A model generated the notes under the pieces. The model was not told the DNA's origin. It was given only the letters and a program-made list of their open reading frames with translations, and made no database searches. The position numbers were made by a program, and so were the translations under genes. Of a stretch of DNA of 31,639 nucleotides, positions 2,964 to 23,567 are shown piece by piece; the stretch's first letter is position 1; the number at the start of each line of letters is the position of its first letter. The stretch is from a virus. The stretch covers positions 1-31,639 of IMG/VR virus record IMGVR_UViG_3300025889_000568; one strand, given 5' to 3'.

Positions 2964-3889
2964 TGGGTCTTCTTTCGAGTATTGGCGCAGTAAAAGAAGA
3001 AATGGGAACTGGCGGCACACCTACAGGCGGCACAAGCACGGGCGGTATGGGTGACTGGCTGTCGATTCTTGGTTTATTAGGTGGAGGCGGCCTTTTAACT
3101 GGCCTTGGCTTAAGCGACCTTAGTGATATTGGCTCATCGGCAAATAAACAAGCGCAAGAACTTGCTGAAAAACTGATGGGAATGACAAAGTTTCAGCCGT
3201 TTACGCTTACGTCTGCTACAGGAAGTACATTTGGAGTGGGTCAAGGGGAAGACGGAACTGGCGTTACTATGGCTTTGTCTCCTGAAGAGAAGGCTTTCCA
3301 ACAAATGATGTTTGGACAGGCTAGCAATTTCCTTAGTCAAGCTGCTCAAGACACTGGGCAGCGAGAAGCAGATATTTATCAGCGAATGCGTAGTGTAATG
3401 TCTCCTCAAGAAGAGCAGCAGAGACAACAAATGGAAGAGCGGCTGGCTGCACAAGGGCGACTCGGTGTGCAAACAGCACAGTTTGGAGGCACTCCAGAGC
3501 AAATGGCGTTGTTTAAAGCGCAAGAGCAAGCTAAAAACGAAGCAATGTTTGGCGCCATGCAACAAGCTCGGGCTGAGCAAGCACAGCAAGCAGCACTTGG
3601 TGGTCAGTTCTTAGGGCAGAGCTATATGCCTCAATCGCAGCTTCTTAATGTACAACAGGCTTCTCAGTTGTATCCGCAGTTGGCACAACAAGCACAGCTG
3701 TACGGTGCTGGTCAGTTTGGTGAAACAATGCTGTCTGGTATTGAAGCTCAGTTGCTGGCTGAACAAGCTAAAGCTAACCTATTGGGTGGACTCGGCTCTA
3801 GCATTTTGGGTGGATTGTTTACTCCCGTTGCACAACAGGGTGGTGGAGTTGGTAGTCTTTTGAGCAGTCTTTTGGGCAGACTTTTTTAA
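2963..3889 (+). CDS. Gln/Ala-rich internal virion protein (ejection protein candidate)
   Basis: A 308-residue protein with a Gly/Thr-rich N-terminus containing a hydrophobic LGLLGGGGLLTGLGL stretch near residues 34-50. A long helical centre extremely rich in Gln, Ala and Glu follows (about residues 100-250), with a Gly/Leu-rich C-terminal tail (LLGGLGSSILGGLF). This size, composition and position, the first of three internal proteins after the tail closure gene, fit the smallest ejection protein of T7- or P22-like phages, which forms part of the DNA delivery channel. There is no diagnostic motif, so the role is inferred from gene order. Start supported by GGAGGG upstream and a TGATG overlap. 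Confidence 0.5.
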   Translation: MGLLSSIGAVKEEMGTGGTPTGGTSTGGMGDWLSILGLLGGGGLLTGLGLSDLSDIGSSANKQAQELAEKLMGMTKFQPFTLTSATGSTFGVGQGEDGTGVTMALSPEEKAFQQMMFGQASNFLSQAAQDTGQREADIYQRMRSVMSPQEEQQRQQMEERLAAQGRLGVQTAQFGGTPEQMALFKAQEQAKNEAMFGAMQQARAEQAQQAALGGQFLGQSYMPQSQLLNVQQASQLYPQLAQQAQLYGAGQFGETMLSGIEAQLLAEQAKANLLGGLGSSILGGLFTPVAQQGGGVGSLLSSLLGRLF

Positions 3890-3906
3890 GTAGCGGAGAA
3901 TAAACA

Positions 3907-5328
3907 ATGGCTAGATTTAATGCGTTACTTCAATCATTAGCTAACGCTCCAAATGCTTATGAAGGGTTGTTTGAGGCTGGTCGCGGACTAGGAATGACTC
4001 CGAATCTTATGATGGCTGAAAGGCAACGTCAGGCGCTTGAAGCTCAAACAAAGCAAGATCAAGCTCTGATGCTGCAAACAATTAACCAAGCGCAATCAGC
4101 TGCTGAGCAAGGCGATATGAACGCTTTAAATGTTCATCGGCAGTCTTTGATGGATATTTATAGCAGAACAAGCGATAAAGAAACTCAAACAATGCTTTTA
4201 GATTCTATCGCTGGAATTAATGCTGTTCGTCCTGCCGCTCAAAGCAAATCTGTTTCAAATACAGCGCAGTCTATTATTAAAACAGAAGACGCTATTAAGG
4301 AAATGGAAAAAGAAAGAGAATCTTTAAAAGTTTCTGGAGATTCAGGCGATTTATCTGGAGTGTTTACTGCAGGCCAAGAGCAAGCTTTGCAAGCGTTAAA
4401 ATCTCGACTTAACGTAATGCAGCAAAACAGCGAAGCCGTTGCTCAAGCTGCCGAAATTCGGTATCAGAAAAGATATGAAGCTCTAAAACAAGAAAATGAG
4501 TTATTTGCCCAGCAAGAAACTATCGCAAGGCGAGCTTTATCTGCCGTAAAGTTTGACTCTAGTCAATACAAAGAATTATCTGCGCGATTAAGAAAGCAGG
4601 AATTTGGCGATATTGTTGATCAGTATGAAAAAGACCAATACGCCTTGATGGAGGCTAGAGAGAAAGCAGATAAGACGCGCAAGAGCAAAGAACCATTAAC
4701 ACCGGCAGAGCGCAAAAAACTGGAAGACTATAACTTTGTGCCCGGAGGCCCTGACAAGATTGTGCGAGATAAAGGAATTCTTGCAAAGATTGAGGAAAAA
4801 GAAACAGTCGACAAAATTAGGATAGCTAGCGCAGAAAATGCGCGTGTAGCCAACGCAGCAATTCTTGCCAATGTTCAAGCAACTTTAGAGACTATAGCAG
4901 CAGAAATGGATGTGCCTTGGAATCTGTTTGACGATATTTATAACAAGATTGAAGAGCTTGATTCTGTAGAGATACAAGAGTTTGCAGACAGCTTGAAAAG
5001 GCCGTCAGGAGAAGAGCTTAGCTTGCCGCAAATACAAGCCGAAACTATTGCATTTGTTAAGCGTAAATTTCCACAGCTATGGAAAGAAGCTACTCAGACG
5101 AAATCCAATCTTGCAGACGAAGCTGCATTGGTTGATGTTTTAACTGCAGACTTGCTTGTTGGTAAAGGCTTGGCTGTTAGAGATGAAAACGGAGCAGTTG
5201 ATCTTTCTGGTGTAAAGGAAGAGGATATAAGGGCTGCTAGGCGAGAGGTAGAGCGCCGAAGAAGTATTGTGCCTACTTTTGAAAACTATGTAGAAGGTTC
5301 TATTCGCAGCGGACTGGGTTCTAAGTAA
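3907..5328 (+). CDS. Coiled-coil internal virion protein
   Basis: A 473-residue, highly charged and mostly helical protein. Residues about 25-240 are rich in Gln, Glu, Lys and Ala with heptad-like spacing, suggesting extended coiled coils. There is no signal peptide or membrane segment. GGAG at 3895-3898 precedes the ATG by 8 bases. It lies between the small Gln-rich protein and the 927-residue protein, matching the middle member of the three internal virion proteins carried by many podoviruses. Its stop overlaps the next start (TAATG, 5326-5330), implying coupled, stoichiometric translation. Function is inferred from position. Confidence 0.5.
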   Translation: MARFNALLQSLANAPNAYEGLFEAGRGLGMTPNLMMAERQRQALEAQTKQDQALMLQTINQAQSAAEQGDMNALNVHRQSLMDIYSRTSDKETQTMLLDSIAGINAVRPAAQSKSVSNTAQSIIKTEDAIKEMEKERESLKVSGDSGDLSGVFTAGQEQALQALKSRLNVMQQNSEAVAQAAEIRYQKRYEALKQENELFAQQETIARRALSAVKFDSSQYKELSARLRKQEFGDIVDQYEKDQYALMEAREKADKTRKSKEPLTPAERKKLEDYNFVPGGPDKIVRDKGILAKIEEKETVDKIRIASAENARVANAAILANVQATLETIAAEMDVPWNLFDDIYNKIEELDSVEIQEFADSLKRPSGEELSLPQIQAETIAFVKRKFPQLWKEATQTKSNLADEAALVDVLTADLLVGKGLAVRDENGAVDLSGVKEEDIRAARREVERRRSIVPTFENYVEGSIRSGLGSK

Positions 5329-9185: not shown

Positions 9186-10342
9186 GCTCTCGGCCTCACT
9201 GTAACTCTTGCTATCTCTCCGTCAGTCTTGTCGTATGTAATAACTTTGGCTCCTCGCCGTGATACCCAGCCACCTCTTGCTGCATAGGCATCCCTACCAC
9301 TCAACGTTGGGTGCATTTCGGCAATAGCGCCACCGTCCTCTATCAATCGTTCGTGATGATAGTGACCGGTATGAATGTAGGTATACGATGCCTTGCCCCA
9401 CATTTCCCTAAACCTTGGCTCGCTAGCAAATAGCTTGTGCAGATTAGCCAACTTTACTTTGTGACCATGATGGAAGCCCAACATAGTTTCTCCATGCAGA
9501 TAGGCATAATACGGAAAGTCATTGTCAATTACTTGCAGTCTTGGCTCGTCAGCAAACAGATGTTTGATGTGCTTACGAAGCCAGATGCTGCCTGAAATAT
9601 CATGGTTCCCTTCCGCTGAAATAACAAGCACCTCGTCAAACTTTCTCAGCATCATCCGCACAGCCTCAACCATCACCGACATGGACAGGTCAACCAGCTT
9701 GCCGTAACGGGTGTCGGCATCGAGGATATGGCCTGACTGCGGGGTAACGCTGAGGATCCCATCCCAGTGGAGGAAGTCTCCCAGCTGGCACAGCATCCCG
9801 GTCTTGGCTTTTGGGGCTGCTTGGATCATGTCATGGATGGAGTTCAAGAATACTTCTCTGGCAATGTGGACATCCCAGTCGTCGCCAGTTTCTGCCTCGT
9901 ATGCGTACATCCCGAGGTGAAAGTCCGTAATGGTAAGGAGTGCAAGCAGGCTTTCTTCCGTAGATTTTGGTGCTGCAGCAGGCTTGAATCTAGGCCATTG
10001 AGATTGTGCCGACTCAATCCTTTCGACCAGGATTTCAAACTGGCGCTGCTCGTCGGTCTGAGACTTAACCCATTGCCTGACAGGGTTGCCGTCCTCGTCG
10101 TAAAACGTGGACACCCCTTTGATCTTGTGACCATCTGGCACTGGCCTAAACCAGTTGTGCTGTGGGCTGTATCCCTGCTTGGCAGCTTTTCTCCTGACTG
10201 CCTGAGCGTGGTGCTTGACTGCTTCGCGCGTGCTGTTTAAAACTTTTGCCGCTTGATATTGTGACAGCCCTTCTACTTCACAAAGTTCAATCACTTTTCT
10301 TTGTTTTTCTGTTGAGCAAAACTGTAGTAACGGATGCTCCAT
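9182..10342 (-). CDS. HTH-metallophosphoesterase fusion protein
   Basis: A 386-residue protein. Residues about 8-55 form a helix-turn-helix of sigma/LuxR type (GLSQYQAAKVLNSTREAVKHH) with a basic tail. After a linker comes a calcineurin-like phosphoesterase domain showing all metal motifs in order: TDFHLG (D140, H142), GDF near 188-190, GNHD at 245-248, HHGH near 291-294 and HTGHYHH near 324-330. Such enzymes in phages are thought to act as DNA nucleases or phosphatases, and the HTH suggests DNA targeting. AAGGAGG lies before the ATG. It sits among replication and recombination genes, so a DNA-processing role is likely but not proven. Confidence 0.75.
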   Translation of the reverse strand: MEHPLLQFCSTEKQRKVIELCEVEGLSQYQAAKVLNSTREAVKHHAQAVRRKAAKQGYSPQHNWFRPVPDGHKIKGVSTFYDEDGNPVRQWVKSQTDEQRQFEILVERIESAQSQWPRFKPAAAPKSTEESLLALLTITDFHLGMYAYEAETGDDWDVHIAREVFLNSIHDMIQAAPKAKTGMLCQLGDFLHWDGILSVTPQSGHILDADTRYGKLVDLSMSVMVEAVRMMLRKFDEVLVISAEGNHDISGSIWLRKHIKHLFADEPRLQVIDNDFPYYAYLHGETMLGFHHGHKVKLANLHKLFASEPRFREMWGKASYTYIHTGHYHHERLIEDGGAIAEMHPTLSGRDAYAARGGWVSRRGAKVITYDKTDGEIARVTVRPRA

Positions 10343-10697: not shown

Positions 10698-10734
10698 CCT
10701 TGGGCATAAGCGGCACTGTGGGCATTCTGGGCAT
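10693..10734 (-). CDS. 13-residue micro-ORF made of the right repeat array
   Basis: Reads leftward as MPRMPTVPLMPKV, with repeated MP-x tripeptides from the 9-bp units. Its ATG overlaps the stop of the ATPase gene (TAATG on the minus strand), so terminating ribosomes could re-initiate here. It ends inside the central hairpin. Function unknown. It may be fortuitous because the repeat core supplies ATGCCC. Confidence 0.2.
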   Translation of the reverse strand: MPRMPTVPLMPKV

Positions 10735-10735
10735 T
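10700..10735 (-). repeat. Four 9-bp repeats in inverted orientation (right arm of dyad)
   Basis: Units on the plus strand are TTGGGCATA, AGCGGCACT (degenerate), GTGGGCATT and CTGGGCATT, all in the same 9-bp phase. The core TGGGCA is the reverse complement of the left-arm core TGCCCA. The last unit overlaps the stop codon of the ATPase gene. Confidence 0.65.
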
Positions 10736-11918
10736 AGATTTCTGCCTGCCAAGAATAAAACTTTTTCCCATGCTCTCCTCTGCGCTCCAGCTTTAGGTGA
10801 TTACCCTTGAGAAGATCAATGCAGGTACGCAAAGTCTTGCGAGTGCAAGAGTTGGGGTTGATCTCATGGTCATTGAGCAGGTCAAACAGATCGCTTTGAG
10901 AGAAGGATCTGCCAGTTTTCATTACGCTACTGAGGAAAATAAACTCATCTTCGTACTTGGCAAGCGCCCTCCCAACGTTGATTTGCGCCCGCTGCTTGGC
11001 TTTCAGCCCTGCAATGTCGTCGGCTGTCATGAACTGTACCGAATCCACCGACTCCTCATAACCCACTAAAGCTCCAGTCTGCTTGTACTTGAAGCCGCCC
11101 TCGAAGCTGATCTGACTACGATCTTTCTCATTAATTACTAAAAGCTCTTGATGTAGAGCGAACTTATCGTTTAGCGGATCAAGGCCAAACATATTGTCAA
11201 CGTCTGCTTTTAGATCGCCGACTCCCTCATATACCAAGCGACCATCCATACTCCGGTGCTTATTGCAGTGACCGAGCAGGATAACTGTGCCGCCAGCCGC
11301 AGCAAACTCCCTGAATACGTGGAGAACCTCGCGCATATCCCCTTTGTTTAGTACTGGGGCAAACTTTTTCAGGGTGTCACAGATGACGATCTTTCCATCG
11401 GCCTCGCCCTCAAGACGGATTGCATTCAGCAACCGTAGGGCATCTGCCGTGGTGCGAAGAGAAGGGTCTGGAGAATTAGCCAGCGTAACCATTGTCATGC
11501 CGTGACGATGGCCCAGCTTAGCCTTTTGCAGTACGCCCTTGGCCCCGTCATCCTCGTTGAAATAGATAACATCTGAGCCTTTGATCAGGTTGTTACGGAT
11601 GGACTGGAACAGGTTGCCAAGAATCCAAACTGTTTTACCTGCGCCACTAGGTGCATACACCAGCGTCACTGTTCCAGTGGTAATCATGCCAGGAATAACG
11701 TCACGTTCTTTAGACAGGCGATCTTCTAGCTCTGTGATTCGGTCGTTGATAGAGGCGTTCTTTAGCCTTCTGAGCGACGATAATGTTTCTTGGTGGGATA
11801 CCCCATTAGGTTGGCTATCGTTTAATACAGGGCCATTCAGGGGCTTTATAGGGGTTACTGTGCTTACGGTCTTGCTTGGGTTTTGTTCTAGACAATACAG
11901 CGCCCAGTCATCTGACAT
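10734..11918 (-). CDS. RepA/RecA-type AAA ATPase (putative replicative helicase or loader)
   Basis: A 394-residue protein with a disordered N-terminal 50 residues followed by a RecA-fold ATPase. Walker A is APSGAGKT (about 89-96), Walker B is KIVICD (about 176-181), and a further strand motif GTVILLGHCNKH (about 210-221) matches hexameric RepA/DnaB-like helicases and KaiC/RecA relatives. The C-terminal 80 residues look like a winged helix (SQSDLFDLLNDHEINPNSCTR onward). Probably unwinds or remodels DNA at the phage origin. It is the first gene of the leftward replication block, has AAGGAG before its ATG and a divergent control region upstream, and the 9-bp-repeat dyad starts at its stop codon. 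Confidence 0.75.
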   Translation of the reverse strand: MSDDWALYCLEQNPSKTVSTVTPIKPLNGPVLNDSQPNGVSHQETLSSLRRLKNASINDRITELEDRLSKERDVIPGMITTGTVTLVYAPSGAGKTVWILGNLFQSIRNNLIKGSDVIYFNEDDGAKGVLQKAKLGHRHGMTMVTLANSPDPSLRTTADALRLLNAIRLEGEADGKIVICDTLKKFAPVLNKGDMREVLHVFREFAAAGGTVILLGHCNKHRSMDGRLVYEGVGDLKADVDNMFGLDPLNDKFALHQELLVINEKDRSQISFEGGFKYKQTGALVGYEESVDSVQFMTADDIAGLKAKQRAQINVGRALAKYEDEFIFLSSVMKTGRSFSQSDLFDLLNDHEINPNSCTRKTLRTCIDLLKGNHLKLERRGEHGKKFYSWQAEI

Positions 11919-13303: not shown

Positions 13304-14212
13304 ATGAGGTACGGTTCAATATGCTCTGGCATAGAGGCTGCGACTATGGCGTGGCATATATTAGGATGGGAGCCTGCATTTTTCTCTGAAATAGAACAGT
13401 TCCCGCGCGAAGTGCTGGCGCACCATTACCCAGAGGTTCCATGCCACGGGGACTTCACTACCATTAGAGAGGATGATTATGGATCAATCGAACTTTTGGT
13501 TGGGGGAACCCCCTGCCAATCATTCAGCATCGCCGGACTCAGAGGCGGCATGGATGATGAGCGCGGTAACTTGGCACTCGAATTCATTAAGCTTGCTCAA
13601 CGCAAGTGGCCCAAATGGGTGGTCTGGGAAAACGTCCCCGGCGTCTTGTCATCGAACGGAGGACGGGACTTTGGCTCCTTCCTCGGGGCGCTGGCTGAAA
13701 TCGGGTATGGGTTCGCCTACCGAGTTCTTGACGCTCAATACTTCGGAGTGGCCCAGCGGCGCCGCCGTGTGTTCGTTGTCGGATACCTTGGAGACTGGAG
13801 ACGTGCCGCAGCGGTTCTTTTTGAGCGCGAAAGCCTGTCAGGGAATCCTGCGCCGAGCCGAGAAAAGGGGGAAAAAGTTGCCCCCGATGCTGAGATCAGC
13901 TCTGGAAGCGACCCTGAGCTGATGGCAACGCTCTGCGCCAAGGACAACGAGAAGTGGGGCTGTAACCAGTGGGTGGATGAGGGTAAGGCAATTATTTGCC
14001 CCACACCTAACCGCCATGGCGTTAGACGCCTGACACCAACGGAGTGCGAGAGGCTACAGGGATTCCCCGATGGCTTCACGCAGATCCCGTACCGCAACAA
14101 GCCAGCAGATAAGTGTCCCGATGGGCCGAGGTACAAGGCTCTGGGCAACTCAATGGCTGTACCCGTGATGCGTTGGATCGGTGAGCGGATACAGCAGGTC
14201 GATAACTTATGA
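13304..14212 (+). CDS. dcm: DNA (cytosine-5) methyltransferase
   Basis: A 302-residue C5 methyltransferase with the conserved motifs in order: I SICSGIEAATMAW (about 5-17), IV GGTPCQSFS with catalytic C71, VI WENVPG (about 108-113), VIII QRRRRVFVVG (151-160), IX RRLTPTECERLQGFPDG (241-257), X GNSMAVPVM (281-289). The target recognition region between VIII and IX is short (about 80 residues), so specificity is not predictable. It probably methylates phage DNA to avoid host restriction, complementing the ArdC-like protein. The region is GC-richer than the virion genes. A second reading frame within it is also likely coding. The stop overlaps a 22-codon ORF. Confidence 0.92.
   Translation: MRYGSICSGIEAATMAWHILGWEPAFFSEIEQFPREVLAHHYPEVPCHGDFTTIREDDYGSIELLVGGTPCQSFSIAGLRGGMDDERGNLALEFIKLAQRKWPKWVVWENVPGVLSSNGGRDFGSFLGALAEIGYGFAYRVLDAQYFGVAQRRRRVFVVGYLGDWRRAAAVLFERESLSGNPAPSREKGEKVAPDAEISSGSDPELMATLCAKDNEKWGCNQWVDEGKAIICPTPNRHGVRRLTPTECERLQGFPDGFTQIPYRNKPADKCPDGPRYKALGNSMAVPVMRWIGERIQQVDNL
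13473..13922 (+). CDS. Overlapping-frame protein inside dcm
   Basis: A 149-residue open frame in +1 relation to dcm. I recall products of this kind recurring inside phage dcm genes, with the features seen here: KTSPA...TEDGTLAPSSGRWLKSGMGSPT, then VCSLSDTLETG, then a basic PQRFFLSAKACQGILRRAEKRGKK segment. The dcm frame over the same bases also looks conserved (QRRRRVFVVG to RRAAAVLFERESL). GAGAGG at 13467-13472 precedes the second ATG (13479) by 6 bases. The basic C-terminal part suggests nucleic-acid binding, but no function is known to me. It could still be a by-product of constraint on dcm. Confidence 0.5.
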   Translation: MIMDQSNFWLGEPPANHSASPDSEAAWMMSAVTWHSNSLSLLNASGPNGWSGKTSPASCHRTEDGTLAPSSGRWLKSGMGSPTEFLTLNTSEWPSGAAVCSLSDTLETGDVPQRFFLSAKACQGILRRAEKRGKKLPPMLRSALEATLS

Positions 14213-16302: not shown

Positions 16303-17136
16303 TTATGCAGCTTGCTCATACTTTCGCATCATGGTGAACTGCGACATACAATACTCAGCTGCTTTACGCGCAGCCGTCGATGCCGTCAATAGATAGTTAG
16401 CATCAGACTCAATCGCCTTCTGCCATGACTTTAGATAACTTGCGTGTTGCTTGATGTCATAGGTCACGCCAAGCTCTGCACATAGGAAGATACTGCCAAG
16501 CTCAGCGACAAGCTCCTCCTTGGCATAGTCCTCGCTGCCAAATCTGTTAAGTATCGGACGATCAAGCCGCTTGCTATGCCCAGTAGCATGGATGCACTCG
16601 TGATAAAACGTAGACTGATGCGCATCATCTGACTCAAACTGACCAGGCATCGGCATCTTTATCTTGTCTGACAGCGGCGAATAACATGGGTTGTAAGACT
16701 GATGGCTTTCAATCTCCACCTGCAAGGCATCTGCCATCTCATAAGGCCGCTCTAACTTTGTCGGACGCAGCTCTACTTCTGGCACTTCAATGCCGGTCTG
16801 CTCTATATTGAATACGTTGTACAGCTTGGCAAACTTGTAGAGCTTTTCAGGATCGTCCTTGTCTTTATTGCTACCATAGAAAACAGCAGGCGTGGCTTTC
16901 TGTCCTTTGACATTGCCGCCAAGATCCTGCACCTGCTTGTACGTCAGCCAGTAATTGCTTTTGTACTTATTAGCCCACGCTGAAATCATGGTGCTGATCT
17001 GGTTGACGCCACTATAAGGACGCTTGCTAAGCCAGTTGCAATGCGGGCCAGATTGTGATTGCCATGTCTTGCGCCATGTCACATCGTCATCCATAGCGGA
17101 CAGCACCAGGTCAACTATTCTTTTGTACTTGCTCAT
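16303..17136 (-). CDS. ardC: ArdC-like antirestriction protein with zincin domain
   Basis: A 277-residue protein with the two-part ArdC architecture. The N-terminal half (about 1-120) has the ssDNA-binding domain pattern (YSGVNQISTMISAW, SNYWLTYKQVQDLGGNVKGQK). The C-terminal half is a zincin-like metallopeptidase with HECIHATGH (H179, E180, H183, H187) and a downstream YAKEELVAELG glutamate segment. Related conjugative proteins protect incoming DNA from type I and II restriction. AAGGAG lies before the ATG, and a repeat-containing intergenic region upstream may control it. Paired with the Dcm gene, it suggests host restriction is a major pressure. Phage homologues are less studied, so the exact activity is uncertain. 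Confidence 0.8.
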   Translation of the reverse strand: MSKYKRIVDLVLSAMDDDVTWRKTWQSQSGPHCNWLSKRPYSGVNQISTMISAWANKYKSNYWLTYKQVQDLGGNVKGQKATPAVFYGSNKDKDDPEKLYKFAKLYNVFNIEQTGIEVPEVELRPTKLERPYEMADALQVEIESHQSYNPCYSPLSDKIKMPMPGQFESDDAHQSTFYHECIHATGHSKRLDRPILNRFGSEDYAKEELVAELGSIFLCAELGVTYDIKQHASYLKSWQKAIESDANYLLTASTAARKAAEYCMSQFTMMRKYEQAA

Positions 17137-17877: not shown

Positions 17878-17962
17878 GCGGATGCTTTGAGGCATCACAC
17901 GCGCGCGCTCACCCGCGCTGTCCAGCGGGTATAATGGCGCGCCGTGGGATCAAAGCGTCCGC
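17878..17962. ncRNA. Candidate structured element: 85-nt three-tier stem-loop
   Basis: Outer stem GCGGATGCTTTGA (17878-17890) with TCAAAGCGTCCGC (17950-17962), 13 pairs including one G-T. Middle stem CACGCGCGC (17898-17906) with GCGCG-C-CGTG (17937-17946), 9 pairs and one bulge. Inner stem ACCCGC (17911-17916) with GCGGGT (17925-17930), 8-base loop. It is GC-rich compared with nearby genes and has no coding frame. It could be an RNA, a leader structure of the gene at 17849, or a DNA cruciform. Strand is unresolved. The single G-T pair fits a plus-strand RNA. Confidence 0.45.
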
Positions 17963-17977
17963 GTCAAATCTCAACAA

Positions 17978-17993
17978 CCAAATCGCCAAATCG
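17978..17993. repeat. Two tandem CCAAATCG octamers
   Basis: CCAAATCG is repeated twice without a gap and followed by CCATCG, a partial third unit. It lies in non-coding sequence between the 85-nt stem-loop and the leftward terminator. Too short to interpret alone. Could be a small protein-binding site. Confidence 0.45.
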
Positions 17994-18102
17994 CCATCGA
18001 GCGTCGTCCCGCGCTATCATGCCATCGTCCATTGATGCCGAAATAAACCAAATAAAACCCTCCAGCTAAAACAACCCGGCAAAATGAATAGAGAGTAGCA
18101 AT

Positions 18103-18127
18103 AAAAAAAGGGACCCGAAGGCCCCTT
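18103..18127 (-). terminator. Rho-independent terminator of the 18136-18567 gene
   Basis: On the minus strand AAGGGGCC, a TTCG tetraloop, GGTCCCTT and seven T. Eight pairs including one G-T, 8 bases after the stop codon. It ends the leftward transcript of the single gene to its right, so genes from 17849 leftward need their own promoter. Confidence 0.85.
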
Positions 18128-18135
18128 GATGGTAT

Positions 18136-18567
18136 TTAAGCTACCTTAGCCTTGCGAGGCTGACGTTTGGCTCTGACCTTCTCGTCATGCTCGGCCTCAG
18201 AACGCTCGTCCGGTCTAGTGTCAGCGTGCACTGCATCTCGGTTAGCAAAATCCGCTTCCTTACGATACTTCTCGATTAGGTGCGGATTATCGTACAAGCT
18301 CTCACCTTGCAGTTTATCCCGATACTCGATCTGACGCTGGATCTTCCAGTGATCCATCTTGCCGCAAACCGGATACTTCGGAGTGCCATTCTCCCAAGTC
18401 CCAGGATTCTGGTTGTAGAAACCACTGGCAGGGATCCTAGCCTTCGATCCGTCAGAGAACTCTAGAACCAGACTGCCCTGAAGGAATCGACCCTCTCGGA
18501 TCATCTGGTTGCAAGAAAAATCTACGATCTCAGAATCAAACTGCTGTGCCAAAGTACGCTTACTCAT
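18136..18567 (-). CDS. Hypothetical basic protein, 143 residues
   Basis: The N-terminal half is compact and beta-rich (IVDFSCNQMIREGRFLQGSLVLEFSDGSKARIPASGFYNQNPGTW). The C-terminal half is charged and helical and ends in a strongly basic KRQPRKAKVA tail, suggesting nucleic-acid contact. TAAGGAG precedes the ATG and a strong terminator follows, so it is a monocistronic leftward gene. It stands between two densely folded non-coding regions. No family recognised. Confidence 0.6.
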   Translation of the reverse strand: MSKRTLAQQFDSEIVDFSCNQMIREGRFLQGSLVLEFSDGSKARIPASGFYNQNPGTWENGTPKYPVCGKMDHWKIQRQIEYRDKLQGESLYDNPHLIEKYRKEADFANRDAVHADTRPDERSEAEHDEKVRAKRQPRKAKVA

Positions 18568-18608
18568 AATTCACTCCTTAGTGAAAAGAAAGATTGAATG
18601 CTCCTTGC

Positions 18609-19066
18609 GGAACACCGTTCCCAACATCGGGAGGAAGCGACCCGCGCTTGCGCGGCCGCTTCTAAGCAGGTTGGGTCAAGCTCGCGGGGTTTGGACAAAA
18701 TTTTCCCAGCGGAAGTATCGCTGGCAAATTTTGCCGAAGGCCGCCGCTTGACGCAGACTGCGCTCCCGATATGCCGATGGTAGCTTTGGAGCGCGGAGAT
18801 TTGTCCCCGCTGAAATAAATAGCCATCATCAGATTTCGCCGGGTGTGTAGTGAAATCTGATAGGCATTCGGCGGGGACAAAGATCACGCTACATTGCGAG
18901 GACTTGCTCGGATCAGAATCTGCCCACCTTTACGCGAGATCTGTCGCAATAGCTAGGGTTATCGAGCCGATCTACTTCGGTTGTCTTTGCGGACAAAAGC
19001 GCGACTTGTCGCCGCTTTGCAAAGGCAATCCGCACACGCGACAGAGCCTTGAGTGGCAACTCGCGT
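18609..19066. ncRNA. Candidate large structured RNA or origin: cluster of nine stem-loops
   Basis: About 460 bp without a credible gene holds consecutive stems: GGAAC/GTTCC (18609-18621); GAAGCG+CCGCGC with partners (18634-18662); CAAAATTT+CCAGCG with partners (18696-18733); CTGCGCTCC/GGAGCGCGG (18758-18796); nested 15+10 pairs (18800-18881); ATTGCGA/TCGCAAT (18893-18950); AGCCGA/TCGGTT (18965-18982); TGCGGA+AAAGCGCGAC with partners (18988-19034); ACGCGA/TCGCGT (19036-19066). Wobble pairs are G-T on the plus strand (18811-18870, 18759-18795, 18966-18981), which favours a plus-strand RNA. A DNA replication origin is the main alternative. Confidence 0.5.
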
Positions 19067-19088
19067 AATGGTGGAGAGGCAGATTCGG

Positions 19089-19247
19089 ATGACAGATTTT
19101 GACCCTGGTTTTGACGATATAGGGTCCTTCCTAGACTCTCACACTGACTCATCTACAACCACCTGTGTGGTATACCGTGATACCAATAGGGTCTACCTGT
19201 ATCAATGTACTCGGCTACTCAAGAGTCTTATTAACCATCAGGATTAA
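19089..19247 (+). CDS. Possible small acidic protein, 52 residues
   Basis: Begins MTDFDPGFDDIGSFLDSH and continues with a Thr-rich segment and a plausible strand-helix end (RVYLYQCTRLLKSLIN). GGAGAGG lies about 10 bases before the ATG. It follows directly on the stem-loop cluster. Composition is protein-like, but it is short and has no recognised family, so it is a tentative call. Confidence 0.35.
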   Translation: MTDFDPGFDDIGSFLDSHTDSSTTTCVVYRDTNRVYLYQCTRLLKSLINHQD

Positions 19248-19501
19248 CGGTGGGACAATTGACACGGGGGGAGGGGGGACTGCGATGTTGAATGTATGGA
19301 GTTGCCCCCCAGATACAAAAAAGGGTGAAATTAGAAAAAAGAAAAGGATAGATTAGTCCTTGAAATATCTATCTAAAGCGTGCATTGTGTTAGAAGAAAA
19401 AGTAATATCAAAAGATTATTTGAAATCCAGTGGATTTATCTATAGGATAGGGGGGGTCGGAGGGCTTAATGGCCCTTTTAAAATTTTAGGGATCTATCGA
19501 A
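19248..19501. other. Non-coding region with long G and C runs
   Basis: This gap holds GGGGGGAGGGGGG at 19266-19278, CCCCCC at 19305-19310 and a G7 run at 19450-19456. The G and C runs could pair with each other or form G-quadruplex structures. No convincing gene is seen. A TTG-initiated 60-codon frame from 19360 exists but is weak. Confidence 0.4.
19461..19479 (+). terminator. Weak intrinsic terminator candidate
   Basis: AGGGC, loop TTAATG, GCCCT and four T, followed by AAAATTTT. Only five pairs and a short T-tract. It would end any rightward transcript through the stem-loop cluster before the packaging genes. Confidence 0.35.
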
Positions 19502-19690
19502 ATGAAAGACAAAGACCATACGGTGTCGTATACGTCTATTGATTACCATTCAATGTGCGAGAAATCCAAGGATCGGATTAAAAAGATGCAGAAAGAGGGC
19601 TTTCAGACGCCTTATGATCCTAAAGAAACCCCAGAAGAAGTAGGGGAATCTAATGGTTACTCAATCATTATGTTGGGAAAGCATGGATAA
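19502..19690 (+). CDS. Hypothetical protein, 62 residues
   Basis: Begins MKDKDHTVSYTSIDYHSMCEKSKDRIKKMQKEG, a hydrophilic, mostly helical protein with an acidic Pro-rich centre. AGGG lies upstream at a poor distance. It is the first gene of the rightward packaging block and overlaps the candidate small terminase gene by 8 bases. No family recognised. Confidence 0.5.
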   Translation: MKDKDHTVSYTSIDYHSMCEKSKDRIKKMQKEGFQTPYDPKETPEEVGESNGYSIIMLGKHG

Positions 19691-20087
19691 TCCAGTAGAA
19701 CCCCGGACCCAGAAGTCCGGAAGGCCCAAAAAAACAGATCTAGCAGCTAATTCCCCTAAAGGCAGAGGTAAAGTAGGGCGACCAAAGGGCGATGCAGCGA
19801 TTATTAACGAGTATAAGTCCAGAATGCTGGCTTCTCCACGCTCTAAAAAGGTGCTGGATACTATATTTGAGGCGGCTTTAGACCATGATCACAAGAATCA
19901 GGCAGCTGCATGGAAGCTGGTAATGGACAGGATCCTGCCAGTTGCTGCATTTGAGAAGGACATCATCAAAGATGCCGGAAGAAGTGCGATACAGATTAAT
20001 ATCACTGGGGTTGGAAGCACGACTATTACTGATGGCTCTCAACCGGGAGAGGAAATTGATGGAGAGGCAGTGGATGTCACAGGATAA
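19683..20087 (+). CDS. Candidate small terminase subunit with AT-hook-like motifs
   Basis: A 134-residue protein. The N-terminal basic region has two GRPK motifs (SGRPKKTD, VGRPKGD) like AT-hooks. A helical core follows (YKSRMLASPRSKKVLDTIFEAALDHDHKNQAAAWKLVMDRILPVAAF), and then an acidic Gly/Thr-rich tail. DNA-binding N-terminus, helical oligomerisation core and position at the head of the packaging block suit a small terminase, which recognises the packaging site and regulates TerL. The upstream ATG at 19653 has an AGGGG site but a longer overlap, so the start is uncertain. Confidence 0.5.
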   Translation: MDNPVEPRTQKSGRPKKTDLAANSPKGRGKVGRPKGDAAIINEYKSRMLASPRSKKVLDTIFEAALDHDHKNQAAAWKLVMDRILPVAAFEKDIIKDAGRSAIQINITGVGSTTITDGSQPGEEIDGEAVDVTG

Positions 20088-20382
20088 ACTAGATGAGGTT
20101 CTAGCAGAGGTGCTAGGTTACGTAACTAGAGTAGGTGACGCTACCAGTCAACTTATTAACGTAGCTATTCTTTTTGGAGACAACGCTAACGAATCTGTAT
20201 CAGGGAGAAGCCACAGGCTTAAGAATAAACACAAGGCTTGGGGCTGGCTTAATTCCTTTATTGATTTTGCGTTTGACGAGAATCACTGTGAGCGCTCGTA
20301 CTTAAACGATGTGGCTAGGGCCGCTAAAACACTAAACGAAGCCAAGCCAAAAAAGAAATCCACTAAGAAAGGAGAAGCATAA
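20074..20382 (+). CDS. Hypothetical protein with basic tail, 102 residues
   Basis: Begins MSQDKLDEVLAEVLGYVTRVGDATSQLINVAI and ends with a Lys-rich tail (KPKKKSTKKGEA). Mostly helical. GGAGAGG at 20061-20067 is 6 bases before the ATG, which decides this start, since the longer frame is a shadow of the preceding gene. The stop overlaps the next start (TAATG). No family recognised. Part of the packaging block. Confidence 0.6.
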   Translation: MSQDKLDEVLAEVLGYVTRVGDATSQLINVAILFGDNANESVSGRSHRLKNKHKAWGWLNSFIDFAFDENHCERSYLNDVARAAKTLNEAKPKKKSTKKGEA

Positions 20383-20864
20383 TGCCAGCGAATTTTAACT
20401 GGAGCGGCGAAAACACTTATCAGCTAGGAAGATCGGCAGGAATTAGTGAGCAAGAAGTTAAAGATACCATTGCTAACGAAGTTCAAGGCAAAGCAACAGA
20501 TGAACAAAAAGGATATATTGATAAGTGGTCTAAAGATAAAGCCATGAACGGGCGGATCTATAACCAAGCCATAAACAGGTATAAAAAGTACTGGGAAGAA
20601 AACTATACTCCTGAAGGCTTTGCCATGGGCGGCTATGTTGAAAGTTACGAGGAAGGCGGTGAAGTAGAAGGAGAAGGCACAGGCACTTCAGACTCTATTG
20701 ACGCTAAGCTGTCTGATGGTGAGTTTGTGTTTACTGCTAAGGCCGTAGAAGTAATCGGAGCAGACAATCTCCAGAAGATTATGGAAGAAGCAGAGAAGCA
20801 GTACGACGAGCGCACCTCTTTGTCACAAGCCCGTAGTATGTTTGGGAAGTTTCTGAAGGGGTGA
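20382..20864 (+). CDS. Conserved phage structural-type protein, 160 residues
   Basis: The N-terminal half is helical and charged. The C-terminal half has a Gly/Glu linker, then TGTSDSIDAKLSDGEFVFTAKAVEVIGADNLQKIMEEAE. This TSDSI-LSDGEFVFTAKAVE pattern recurs in phage head or tail-associated proteins of unknown role. TAATG coupling upstream and GTGA coupling to the M15 peptidase downstream place it in a translation-linked set, perhaps related to lysis or particle assembly. Confidence 0.6.
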   Translation: MPANFNWSGENTYQLGRSAGISEQEVKDTIANEVQGKATDEQKGYIDKWSKDKAMNGRIYNQAINRYKKYWEENYTPEGFAMGGYVESYEEGGEVEGEGTGTSDSIDAKLSDGEFVFTAKAVEVIGADNLQKIMEEAEKQYDERTSLSQARSMFGKFLKG

Positions 20865-21202
20865 GACACTTCAAATTGTCAGAGTTTGACTGTACGCACA
20901 CAGGTGAAAACCGCATGGAACCTGAGTTTTTAGAAAAGTTAGACAACCTCAGAGACTACTGCGGCTTTCCTTTTGTTATTACCAGCGGATACAGAAGCCC
21001 TAGTCACCCGTTAGAGGCGGTAAAAGAGATTCCGGGGACTCACGCGCAAGGCATAGCAGCAGATATTAAGATGACTAATTCTGCTCATCGGTATTCGTTA
21101 ATAAAAGCAGCCTTAGATCACGGTTTTACTGGCATAGGGATCGCTGGTACTTTTATTCACCTAGATACTCGGGGCACTGCACCCGTAGTGTGGACTTACT
21201 AA
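20861..21202 (+). CDS. Peptidase M15 family (D,D- or L,D-peptidase), endolysin candidate
   Basis: A 113-residue protein with the M15 signature: TSGYRSPSHP (about 41-50), GTHAQGIAADI (59-69, with zinc ligands H61 and D68) and FIHLD (98-102, H100). These enzymes cleave peptidoglycan cross-bridge peptides. It probably serves as the phage endolysin or a virion-associated muralytic enzyme. The GTG start at 20861 overlaps the preceding TGA. The lipoprotein gene just downstream may be its partner in envelope disruption. Confidence 0.85.
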   Translation: MRHFKLSEFDCTHTGENRMEPEFLEKLDNLRDYCGFPFVITSGYRSPSHPLEAVKEIPGTHAQGIAADIKMTNSAHRYSLIKAALDHGFTGIGIAGTFIHLDTRGTAPVVWTY

Positions 21203-21204
21203 CT

Positions 21205-21555
21205 ATGTTGTACACAAGAAATACTAACGTTACAACTACAGATGTAGCCACTATGGTTACTGTTCCTAATGGTTACGTAGCGTACTGGAATATGCTCTTT
21301 ATTAGTAATCTAGGTGGCTCTACTAACGGTGCTGGAATCTACGTAGACAAAGCTGACGGAACCCGTGTAGATATTTTAGGCGGTGGTAACGTATCAGCTA
21401 AAGACTTTTTGTTAATTGACGGTAACGCAGTGTTTGTTCTTCAAGCGGGTGACGCTATCAAGGCGTACACAACATCAGCAGGAGACATGGAGTTTGTTGT
21501 AACGTTTGACTTAATAGAGCAAGCCCCAACCTTTGTAAACTTTAACGGGAGTTAA
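21205..21555 (+). CDS. Hypothetical beta-rich protein, 116 residues
   Basis: Begins MLYTRNTNVTTTDVATMVTVPNGYVAYWNMLFISN and is rich in Thr, Val, Gly and short strands throughout, like small head-decoration or tail-appendage proteins. The ATG at 21205 follows the M15 stop by two bases. No good Shine-Dalgarno is visible, so translation may depend on coupling. No family recognised. A structural role is an inference. Confidence 0.55.
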   Translation: MLYTRNTNVTTTDVATMVTVPNGYVAYWNMLFISNLGGSTNGAGIYVDKADGTRVDILGGGNVSAKDFLLIDGNAVFVLQAGDAIKAYTTSAGDMEFVVTFDLIEQAPTFVNFNGS

Positions 21556-21556
21556 C

Positions 21557-22324
21557 ATGAGACTAGCTTTATTAGCGGTACTTGTATTTTTAACAGGGTG
21601 TGCATCAAGCACTTCTCAGTACTACGATGCAGTACAAAAGACTGCGGAGGCTAACGCAAGAGCAGTACAAGCTAAGTTTGAGGCTTTGTCTAAGATTGCA
21701 TCTAGTGGCGACGGACAGGCTGCTAGTGCTGCTGTAATGGCTTTGGCGCTTACAAGCACTCCTAACGCTCAACCGCTTCCACAGCAGTCTGAGGCTATTC
21801 AATGGGCGTCTGTATTAGCGTCTCCTGTGACTTCTCTTGGCATGATGTGGATGCAGTCAGACTCGGCTAAGACTATGGCTCGTTACAATAGCAAGGTTGA
21901 TATTGCTAGGGTGACTGCTGACGCACAAACTGAGCAGGCACTGTACGGAAGCTTTGCTGATATTTCTAGCGCGGGCTTTACCGCTATGGGTAACGTAGAC
22001 TACACGCCCTTTGTTAACGGCATGGTTGATCTAGCTATGGGTAACGTAGACTACACGCCCTTTGTTAACGGCATGGTTGATCTAGGCACGGCAGGAATTA
22101 ACGGTGCTGTAACGCTAGGCACTGCTGGGTTTGAATCTAACGTGACTCTAGGCACTGCGGGCTTTGATGCTTTAGTAGAAACAAATGCGAGCAACAACTC
22201 TTTGTACAGCTCTGTTTGGTCTGATTACACAGCGTCTATCCAAAACATCATGGCTAACGTGCCTAATGTAATTTGTTCAGTAACCAGCGACGGAGCAGGC
22301 GGAACGACTGTAACCTGTGACTGA
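21557..22324 (+). CDS. Phage lipoprotein with tandem internal repeats
   Basis: A 255-residue protein with a lipoprotein signal: MRLALLAVLVFLTGC, where LTGC is the lipobox and C15 the lipidated residue. After an Ala-rich helical region (about 25-70) come repeats: a perfect 17-residue duplication of AMGNVDYTPFVNGMVDL (nucleotides 21983-22084) and three LGTAG-type units. It would be anchored in the outer membrane, perhaps as a spanin-like or superinfection-exclusion lipoprotein. Position after the M15 peptidase fits a lysis role, but length and repeats are unusual for an o-spanin. Confidence 0.65.
   Translation: MRLALLAVLVFLTGCASSTSQYYDAVQKTAEANARAVQAKFEALSKIASSGDGQAASAAVMALALTSTPNAQPLPQQSEAIQWASVLASPVTSLGMMWMQSDSAKTMARYNSKVDIARVTADAQTEQALYGSFADISSAGFTAMGNVDYTPFVNGMVDLAMGNVDYTPFVNGMVDLGTAGINGAVTLGTAGFESNVTLGTAGFDALVETNASNNSLYSSVWSDYTASIQNIMANVPNVICSVTSDGAGGTTVTCD
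21983..22084 (+). repeat. Perfect 51-bp tandem duplication in lipoprotein gene
   Basis: Copy 1 is 21983-22033 and copy 2 is 22034-22084, identical at every base. The unit is 17 codons (AMGNVDYTPFVNGMVDL), so the frame is kept. Perfect identity, including silent positions, indicates a recent duplication, or an assembly artefact. Confidence 0.9.
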
Positions 22325-23567
22325 TCTCAATGTACAACTGTTGCCTTGGCAGCAGGAAGTCTACTCTGATCCTACACGGTTCAAAGTAGTAGCGGCAGGG
22401 CGACGAACAGGGAAGTCTCGTCTTGCTGCATGGATGCTCATTATTAATGCGCTCCAGACCGATAAAGGTCAAGTTTTTTACGTTGCGCCTACGCAGGGAC
22501 AAGCCCGTGACATTATGTGGCAAACCCTGCTAGAGCTAGGACACCCTGTGATTGCAGGATCACATATTAATAATCTGCAGATCAGGTTGGTCAACGGAGC
22601 CACGATTAGTCTCAAGGGCGCTGATAGACCTGAGACAATGCGTGGCGTGTCCTTGAAGTTTCTTGTGATGGACGAGTACGCAGACATGAAGCCTGAGGTA
22701 TGGGAGCAAATCCTCCGTCCAGCACTTGCAGACCAGAAAGGGCAGGCAATGTTTATAGGTACGCCTATGGGCAGAAACCATTTTTACGAATTGTACAAGT
22801 ACGCAGAGCTAGGGTCAGACGAAACGTACAAAGGGTGGCACTTTACGTCTTACGATAACCCTTTGCTGGACTCAGAAGAAATTGACATGGCTAAAAAGTC
22901 TATGTCGTCTTATGCGTTTCGCCAGGAGTTTATGGCGTCGTTTGAAGCCAGAGGCTCTGAGATGTTTAAAGAAGACTGGGTGCAGTTTGGAGAGGAACCA
23001 GAAGCAGGTGATTATTACATAGCTGTTGACTTGGCTGGCTTTGAAGAAGTAAACAAGAAACGGACAAAGAATACTAAGCTCGATGAAACAGCAATCTCTA
23101 TTGTTAAAGTTAGTCCTGATGGTTGGTACGTTGATAACATTATATATGGGCGGTGGAGCCTTGACGAGACTGCCTCCAAGATATTTCAGGCCGTCAGAGA
23201 CTACAGGCCAATTAGCGTTGGTATTGAAAGAGGAATAGCAAAGCAGGCAGTAATGTCTCCGCTAACAGATTTAATGAAGCGTTACGGGCGGTTTTTTAGA
23301 GTAGAGGAGTTAACTCACGGCAACAAGAAAAAGACTGACAGAGTTATGTGGGCGCTTCAAGGTCGCTTTGAAAACGGCTTTGTAACACTAAACAAAGGAG
23401 AGTGGAACAGTCGATTCTTGGATCAGTTGTTTCAGTTTCCAGATCCATTAACTCACGATGACTTGGTTGACGCACTGGCTTACGTAGATCAGTTGGCGCA
23501 AGTAGCGTACCACTATGATTTTGAGGTTGACAATCACGAAGTTATGGACGTTGTAGCAGGATACTAA
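22317..23567 (+). CDS. terL: Terminase large subunit (TerL)
   Basis: A 416-residue packaging motor. ATPase: adenine-binding LLPWQQEV, Walker A AAGRRTGKS (26-34), Walker B FLVMDE (115-120), coupling motif FIGTP (146-150). Nuclease: YIAVDLAG (D238), VGIERG (E304) and THDDLVDALAY (D381, D382, D385), the RNase H-like metal ligands. It cuts and translocates phage DNA into the procapsid. The GTG start at 22317 overlaps the lipoprotein end by 8 bases. The portal gene follows after two small genes. Confidence 0.95.
   Translation: MTDLNVQLLPWQQEVYSDPTRFKVVAAGRRTGKSRLAAWMLIINALQTDKGQVFYVAPTQGQARDIMWQTLLELGHPVIAGSHINNLQIRLVNGATISLKGADRPETMRGVSLKFLVMDEYADMKPEVWEQILRPALADQKGQAMFIGTPMGRNHFYELYKYAELGSDETYKGWHFTSYDNPLLDSEEIDMAKKSMSSYAFRQEFMASFEARGSEMFKEDWVQFGEEPEAGDYYIAVDLAGFEEVNKKRTKNTKLDETAISIVKVSPDGWYVDNIIYGRWSLDETASKIFQAVRDYRPISVGIERGIAKQAVMSPLTDLMKRYGRFFRVEELTHGNKKKTDRVMWALQGRFENGFVTLNKGEWNSRFLDQLFQFPDPLTHDDLVDALAYVDQLAQVAYHYDFEVDNHEVMDVVAGY

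Follow-up and report, generated by a model that had tools for sequence, protein, structure and literature searches.

The DNA analysed here (the window) is the whole 31,639-nt stretch of the IMG/VR virus record IMGVR_UViG_3300025889_000568. The element under study occupies the divergent gap between a leftward gene and the rightward packaging block (Table 1), and it borders the replication arm of the phage, which encodes a RepA-like AAA_25 helicase, an SbcD-like nuclease, NinB, NinG and Erf; no polymerase, primase or initiator was recognised in the 31.6 kb of the window.

Table 1. Features of the locus (window positions) and the gene mirrors of type B relatives (positions given by contig)
Feature	Position	Strand	Basis or remark
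RepA-like AAA_25 helicase	10734..11918	-	Pfam PF13481, E 7e-10
Terminator after the leftward gene	18127-18108	-	
Leftward gene beside the element	18136..18567	-	no database match
Domain I, three-way junction	18600..18780	+	folds; helix changes in relatives
Domain I closing helix P1	18626-18633/18763-18770	+	folds
Domain I hairpin P2	18634-18662, CUUG loop 18647-18650	+	folds
Domain I long arm P3	18666-18761	+	folds
Domain II, long hairpin, most conserved domain	18783..18897	+	consensus fold, pair counts
Domain II helix; inner stem	~18798-18813/18867-18881; ~18829-18862	+	consensus fold
Domain III, closing helices around inner stems	18912..19090 (closing helices 18912-18938/19060-19090)	+	consensus fold, pair counts
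Domain III CUUG-capped hairpin	19001-19012	+	
Conserved 3' flank of the element (CTCACACTGACTCATC... CAAGAGTCTTA)	19114..19255	+	kept in relatives
Shared putative origin core, G-run 19266-19278 and AT/A-rich block (CAGATACAAAAAAGGGTGAAATTAG)	19259..19350	+	common to relatives
Candidate late promoter, TTGAAA-17-TAGGAT	19420..19449	+	downstream of element
Rightward packaging block	19653..23567	+	
Probable small terminase	19653-20087	+	inferred from position and composition; no database match
Large terminase	22317-23567	+	
Type B mirrors	L055 2535-3160; L059 5127-6085; L099 4083-4772; L100 1684-2514; L101 11355-11996; others		

A structured region without a conserved reading frame

The structured stretch starts at about 18600, its last closing helix ends at 19090, and the conserved block continues to about 19340. 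The original prediction, made from the sequence alone, had placed a run of stem-loops at 18609-19066, with no convincing gene and with a GC content higher than that of the surrounding genes. All of this holds: the position was right, the true extent is slightly larger, and the GC content is approximately 0.50-0.54 versus 0.38-0.50 in the flanks. The RNA fold of 18590-19100 reaches -238.5 kcal/mol on the plus strand, compared with -178.4 (sd 6.8) for dinucleotide shuffles (z -8.84), and -219.7 kcal/mol on the minus strand (z -7.75), far better than the shuffles, none of which was as low as the real sequence on either strand. The long arms include 18800-18814/18867-18881, 18924-18938/19060-19074 and 18912-18924/19078-19090. 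The heptamer GGACAAA, to which the prediction also drew attention, is present at 18693, 18875 and 18991, but we attach no separate meaning to the repeat because the copy at 18875 is the strand that pairs with TTTGTCC at 18800.

A protein-coding region was considered and rejected, given that the open frames of the window are not kept in the homologues, where no conserved protein frame exists across the element, the lengths of indels break the triplet pattern and every frame is interrupted by scattered stops. Comparison with Rfam, which includes GOLLD and other large RNAs, gave no match at the gathering score anywhere in the window, none even at E<=1 in 18500-19700, and none at the locus in the relatives.

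Relatives of the window in IMG/VR, as judged by the large terminase, number at least 598. The window-type element (hereafter, type A) is rare: it was found on only about nine contigs among 2.9 million, namely, besides the window, L053, L086, L042, L043, L088, L123, the near-identical L082 and L083, and, in part, L084; the covariance model R1 of domain II retrieved only window-type relatives and no further ones. No similar phage was matched in INPHARED, and the terminases of cultured phages are only distant (<60% identity). A search of bacterial and archaeal genomes for the host yielded only three terminase relatives, on metagenome-assembled contigs, and was uninformative because these are scattered over unrelated phyla. 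The source phage is uncultured and probably aquatic, and no carrier of the element has been brought into culture.

Among these relatives, whole helices are exchanged, inserted or lost as closed units. In L053, L042, L088 and L043, an unrelated arm on the same base stem takes the place of the entire P3 arm. This alternative arm is kept at 87-88% identity in L084, where most of the rest consists of other stem-loops; the 3' flank is retained even there, despite the replacement of domains I-III. An extra closed hairpin lies just upstream of the domain III CUUG hairpin in L086, L043 and L123.

Selection on pairing and the choice of strand

The fold is kept in all seven homologues tested, and the 94 consensus pairs of the seven-sequence alignment A4 are formed in 95.5% of the cells. 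The structure was derived from the same alignment, in which L043 is misaligned within inner domain III. Double-sided changes affect 10 of the 94 core pairs, compared with a mean of 4.5 after shuffling (0/500 as high) and 1-3 in slid controls. Individual compensatory changes can be read off the sequences. In P1, ATCGGGAG/CTCCCGAT of the window becomes CCCAGAG/CTCTGGG in L053, L042 and L088, and in P2, AAGCG/CGCTT becomes AAGCA/TGCTT in L053. In domain II, G-C is exchanged for C-G in L042 and T-A for A-T in L123, and the domain III closing pairs pass from AA/TT through GA/TC to CG/CG across phages, with pairing kept in all seven. Even the extra domain III hairpin varies in this manner (GGACAGC/GCTGTCC in L086 and L043 versus GGTCAGC/GCTGACC in L123). 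The pairing is maintained while the sequence changes; the fold is under selection.

Several observations favour the plus strand, which folds better than the minus strand in all seven homologues, by 17-45 kcal/mol, and has the lower alignment consensus energy (-123.5 versus -94.4). The G.U:A.C count of 38:1 obtained from the consensus structure is biased by the choice of that structure; an unbiased test, with pairs defined on both strands, gave ratios of 19:6, 12:8, 13:4, 12:6, 5:3 and 3:2 in six reference sequences and is of only moderate strength. Among perfect tetraloop hairpins of type A, CUUG caps 11/39 on the plus strand and 1/39 on the minus strand, set against a background (224 kb) of 6/991 and 7/991, respectively (Fisher p 5e-13 for plus and 0.27 for minus); by our reading, at least seven of the eleven hairpins are independent. 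A CUUG loop with a G-C closing pair is an ultra-stable RNA loop. Given the folding advantage, the excess of G.U and the CUUG bias, we take the element, therefore, to be a rightward RNA, and the preference for this direction originally deduced from G-T wobbles is upheld by the homologues. In all probability, the element is a selected plus-strand RNA.

None of the outcomes that would have refuted the prediction, namely, folding no better than shuffled controls, lack of covariation or a conserved frame, was encountered. A new structured RNA is supported by the absence of Rfam matches, the compensatory changes and the strand preference; its transcription and its mode of action are only inferred. 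The element appears to represent a new, hitherto undescribed family of strongly selected phage RNA, the helices of which are exchanged as modules.

Alternative modules at the locus of the element

The G-run and the AT block downstream of the element are common to phages of the window type, a palindrome type (type B), a DnaA-box type and an iteron type, including those that lack a structured element. In 12 sister phages (L054, L056, L061, L062, L064, L068, L074, L076, L077, L018, L007 and L033), 3-11 exact DnaA boxes (TTATNCACA), for the most part spaced by some 11 bp, lie directly upstream of this shared core, compared with a density of 0.02/kb elsewhere. These arrays occupy the same divergent gap before the terminase genes as the element of the window; that of L061, for example, is at ~3856-4030, directly upstream of the terminase genes. 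Three such sisters, L061, L074 and L077, resemble the window type in genome position, downstream G-run, AT block and terminase genes, but carry 7-10 exact DnaA boxes where the window type has none; the one record among them that reaches far enough, L074, encodes a phage DNA polymerase A and a primase-helicase, whereas the window type has a RepA-like helicase and no polymerase. Exact DnaA boxes are absent from window positions 17900-19660 and from all 19 structured regions of types A and B (12.7 kb), and no 9-mers are repeated in the window region beyond the level of shuffles. In many relatives, the locus has no DnaA boxes and no strong structure either.

Different iteron-like repeats are found at the same place in L048, L072, L025 and L049. 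The families of L025 (Fur-box-like ATTGAGAATCGTTATCATCT iterons, ~3270-3370), L048 (CCATGCCAACT iterons, ~2230-2460) and L049 (ACTTACTTGTCG palindromes, ~4670-4830) differ from one another. In L076, a near-perfect 70-bp inverted repeat without G.U bias brackets the DnaA-box array at the contig start (1-619) and is possibly an assembly artefact.

The palindrome type, found by the motif GAATCGCGGAGG...GGAAACCGyTATTCT, comprises seventeen contigs. In most of these, the right side is non-coding and repeats the entire leftward gene in mirror image, forming an imperfect inverted repeat of 600-960 bp, and the mirrored gene differs from phage to phage. The arm mismatches are strongly biased to G.U over A.C on the plus strand (28:6, 44:7, 25:4, 15:1, 31:3, 34:7, 28:5 and 26:2). 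Strand-asymmetric mutation might contribute to this bias, but we infer that ratios of 4-15 exceed what it would be expected to produce. The loop types of type B show no preference for the plus strand, so that the strand is less certain here than in type A. A diversity-generating retroelement was examined as the source of the gene mirror, since A often faces G, and was rejected because the mismatches are not confined to A. The core hairpin of type B (GAATCGCGGAGGG...GGAAACCGCTATTC) is also present in a third phage group (L103, L105 and L107, a region of ~2.4 kb in each), where, with a 17-bp closing helix and G-rich tracts, it lies directly upstream of a different, HTH-like small-terminase gene.

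The modules at the locus track the replication genes. Whole-record searches identified the RepA-like helicase in 12 records: the window, L043, L088 and L084 of type A; L059, L104, L094, L096, L101 and L075 of type B; and L049 and L063, which lack a structured element and apparently have iteron-like repeats instead. Every long record with a structured element encodes this helicase. DNA polymerase A was detected in twelve other records, none of which (0/12) has a RepA-like helicase or a structured element; the three examined for it (L074, L009 and L039) also encode a T7-like primase-helicase. The structured element is, accordingly, present in 10/12 RepA-helicase records versus 0/12 polymerase A records (Fisher p 7e-5). 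To judge from the apparent iteron-like repeats of L049 and L063, the helicase can occur without the RNA, and because the element borders the replication arm, the linkage could be plain hitch-hiking. The co-occurrence might thus be explicable by linkage alone, yet it places the element with the replication arm. On the terminase tree, the element types require 22 changes, with a minimum of 3, and they swap among near-identical terminases; L042 (type A) and L099 (type B) have one terminase sequence in common.

A replication origin at this locus had been suggested at the outset as a possibility, without any evidence, and is now supported by the DnaA-box and iteron arrays of the sisters at the identical position and by the co-occurrence with one replication module. 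It appears likely that the locus is a replication origin and that the element is an origin module, although both are inferred for the window itself. The cumulative GC skew turns at 18.5 kb, which proves nothing in this respect because the turn coincides with the change of gene direction.

With respect to transcription, neither a sigma-70 scan nor the phage group's own promoter matrix revealed a plus-strand promoter for the element RNA; the host and its promoters are unknown. The candidate late promoter contains, at 19441, the sequence TATAGGATA, which is conserved in types A and B; in the sister phages, the corresponding position between the shared block and the terminase genes is taken by a sigma-70 promoter (TTGACT-17-TATAAT). 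The element is probably not the leader of a late mRNA because the likely late promoter lies downstream of it. In DnaA-box and iteron phages, a strong promoter, TTGACTTTT...AAAAGTATGGTATAAT, occurs twice, once ahead of the terminase genes and a second time some 6 kb further on (in L008, at 2988 and 8990); the window lacks it and has TATAGGATA in its stead.

A proposed RNA-based origin and its rivals

We propose, at slightly less than even odds, that the structured plus-strand RNA is the specificity module of the origin, standing in place of DnaA-box or iteron arrays and comparable to RNA II of ColE1. The structure, selection on pairing, plus-strand bias, position, lack of DnaA boxes and co-occurrence with the RepA-like helicase on which this rests are shown; transcription, priming and the origin in the window are inferred. 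In this view, transcription of the element would proceed rightward, in the direction of the shared G-run and A-rich block, where the folded nascent RNA would remain hybridised to the C-rich template; the resulting R-loop would open the origin, supply the leading-strand primer and expose single-stranded DNA on which the RepA-like helicase would load. Such a scheme would need no DNA-binding initiator. The priming step is the more doubtful part of the proposal, being inferred from anatomy in the absence of a promoter or a transcript, and, on balance, we lean slightly against it. The G-run is also present in DnaA-box phages and hence is not specific to an RNA origin, which counts against an RNA mechanism.

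In ColE1, host RNA polymerase makes a structured RNA of about 550 nt that is hybridised at the origin, cut by RNase H and primes DNA, without the need for an initiator protein (PMC5043065); R-loop priming is also known in T4 (PMC5333043). pMB1 has a G-run and an A-run. The polarity of the element, toward the G-run and then the A-run, agrees with the ColE1 scheme (PMC5043065). Also in keeping with it are the placement of the G-run on the non-template strand and the lack of a recognised phage polymerase. Like RNA II of ColE1/pMB1, the phage element is a structured, non-coding RNA of comparable length that is, by inference, transcribed toward the origin, with no DNA-binding initiator site and with a G-run followed by an A-run at the 3' end. 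Unlike RNA II, with which it has no sequence relation, it belongs to a phage that encodes a RepA-like helicase, its promoter was not found, no antisense RNA I was recognised (judging only from the absence of an Rfam match), and its G-run is common to the DnaA-box relatives.

The foremost alternative, if an unlikely one, is a free-standing ornate RNA resembling GOLLD or ROOL that has a late or host-directed role and merely adjoins the origin. The element is similarly large, ornate, phage-encoded, modular and loosely conserved, and L084, which keeps one arm and replaces the rest, recalls the variable 5' half of GOLLD (PMC12286853). However, it has no Rfam match, is tied by position to the origin locus and is not near tRNAs, there being no tRNA genes in the window according to ARAGORN, whereas GOLLD and ROOL are commonly, albeit not universally, found near tRNA islands; nor would such an RNA explain the replacement of DnaA boxes or the tracking of the replication module. 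It also seems unlikely that the plus strand acts as folded single-stranded DNA, that is, as a site of single-strand initiation or of helicase or primase loading akin to the ssi hairpins of RSF1010 or a primosome assembly site. RSF1010 (IncQ) has a hexameric RepA-type helicase and hairpins (ssi sites) with a role, and the origin locus, the helicase and the strand-specific hairpins of the phage fit this reading, all the more so as DNA also tolerates G.T wobble. Nevertheless, no phage primase was found in the record, and neither iterons nor a counterpart of the RepC initiator or the RepB primase could be recognised in the window. Moreover, the CUUG bias is confined to one strand; the stable DNA loops form the class gCNNGc, and because CAAG would fit this class equally, the bias points to RNA.

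We consider two further readings very improbable. As a long untranslated leader of the late operon, the element would act in cis on RNA polymerase, as does put of HK022, a folded phage RNA that works in cis where control regions diverge. Its place between divergent transcription units, reading toward the late genes, and the failure to find a plus-strand terminator between the element and the terminase block are compatible with this possibility, but put is far smaller, most sisters lack any such structure, and a put-like or small-terminase leader function is weakened by the likely late promoter being downstream of the element, clearly so in the sister phages. Alternatively, the element could have no function and have arisen merely as a by-product when inverted duplication and template switching acted on a hairpin-prone site. 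Inverted duplication does occur at the locus, as seen in the palindrome-type relatives, in which the neighbouring gene is present as an inverted copy; template switching, however, yields perfect palindromes and offers no reason for G.U over A.C, for CUUG loops on one strand or for double changes in long-range helices.

Returning to the RNA-based origin, a bolder reading, which we put forward as a conjecture with the odds tilted modestly against it, is that replication of a tailed DNA phage begins at a structured RNA rather than at a protein-bound DNA array, and that relatives of this phage swap modules of the RNA, giant-palindrome, DnaA-box and iteron types at a single fixed origin site. If this is true, protein-binding DNA at the origin would have repeatedly given way to structured RNA in an abundant group of phages, and a single genetic background would allow origins of the initiator-based and RNA-based kinds to be compared as alleles. 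Should the mechanism prove wrong, there remains the sharp question of why the element accompanies only one replication system.

Outside the locus, the iteron-type record L049 contains, at 9474-9558 on the minus strand, a weak partial tmRNA match (16.6 bits, under the gathering score), the end of which resembles a tag-peptide region. The window itself encodes an ArdC-like antirestriction protein (16303-17136) and a C5 cytosine methyltransferase (13304-14212), which are likely to be counter-defence genes.
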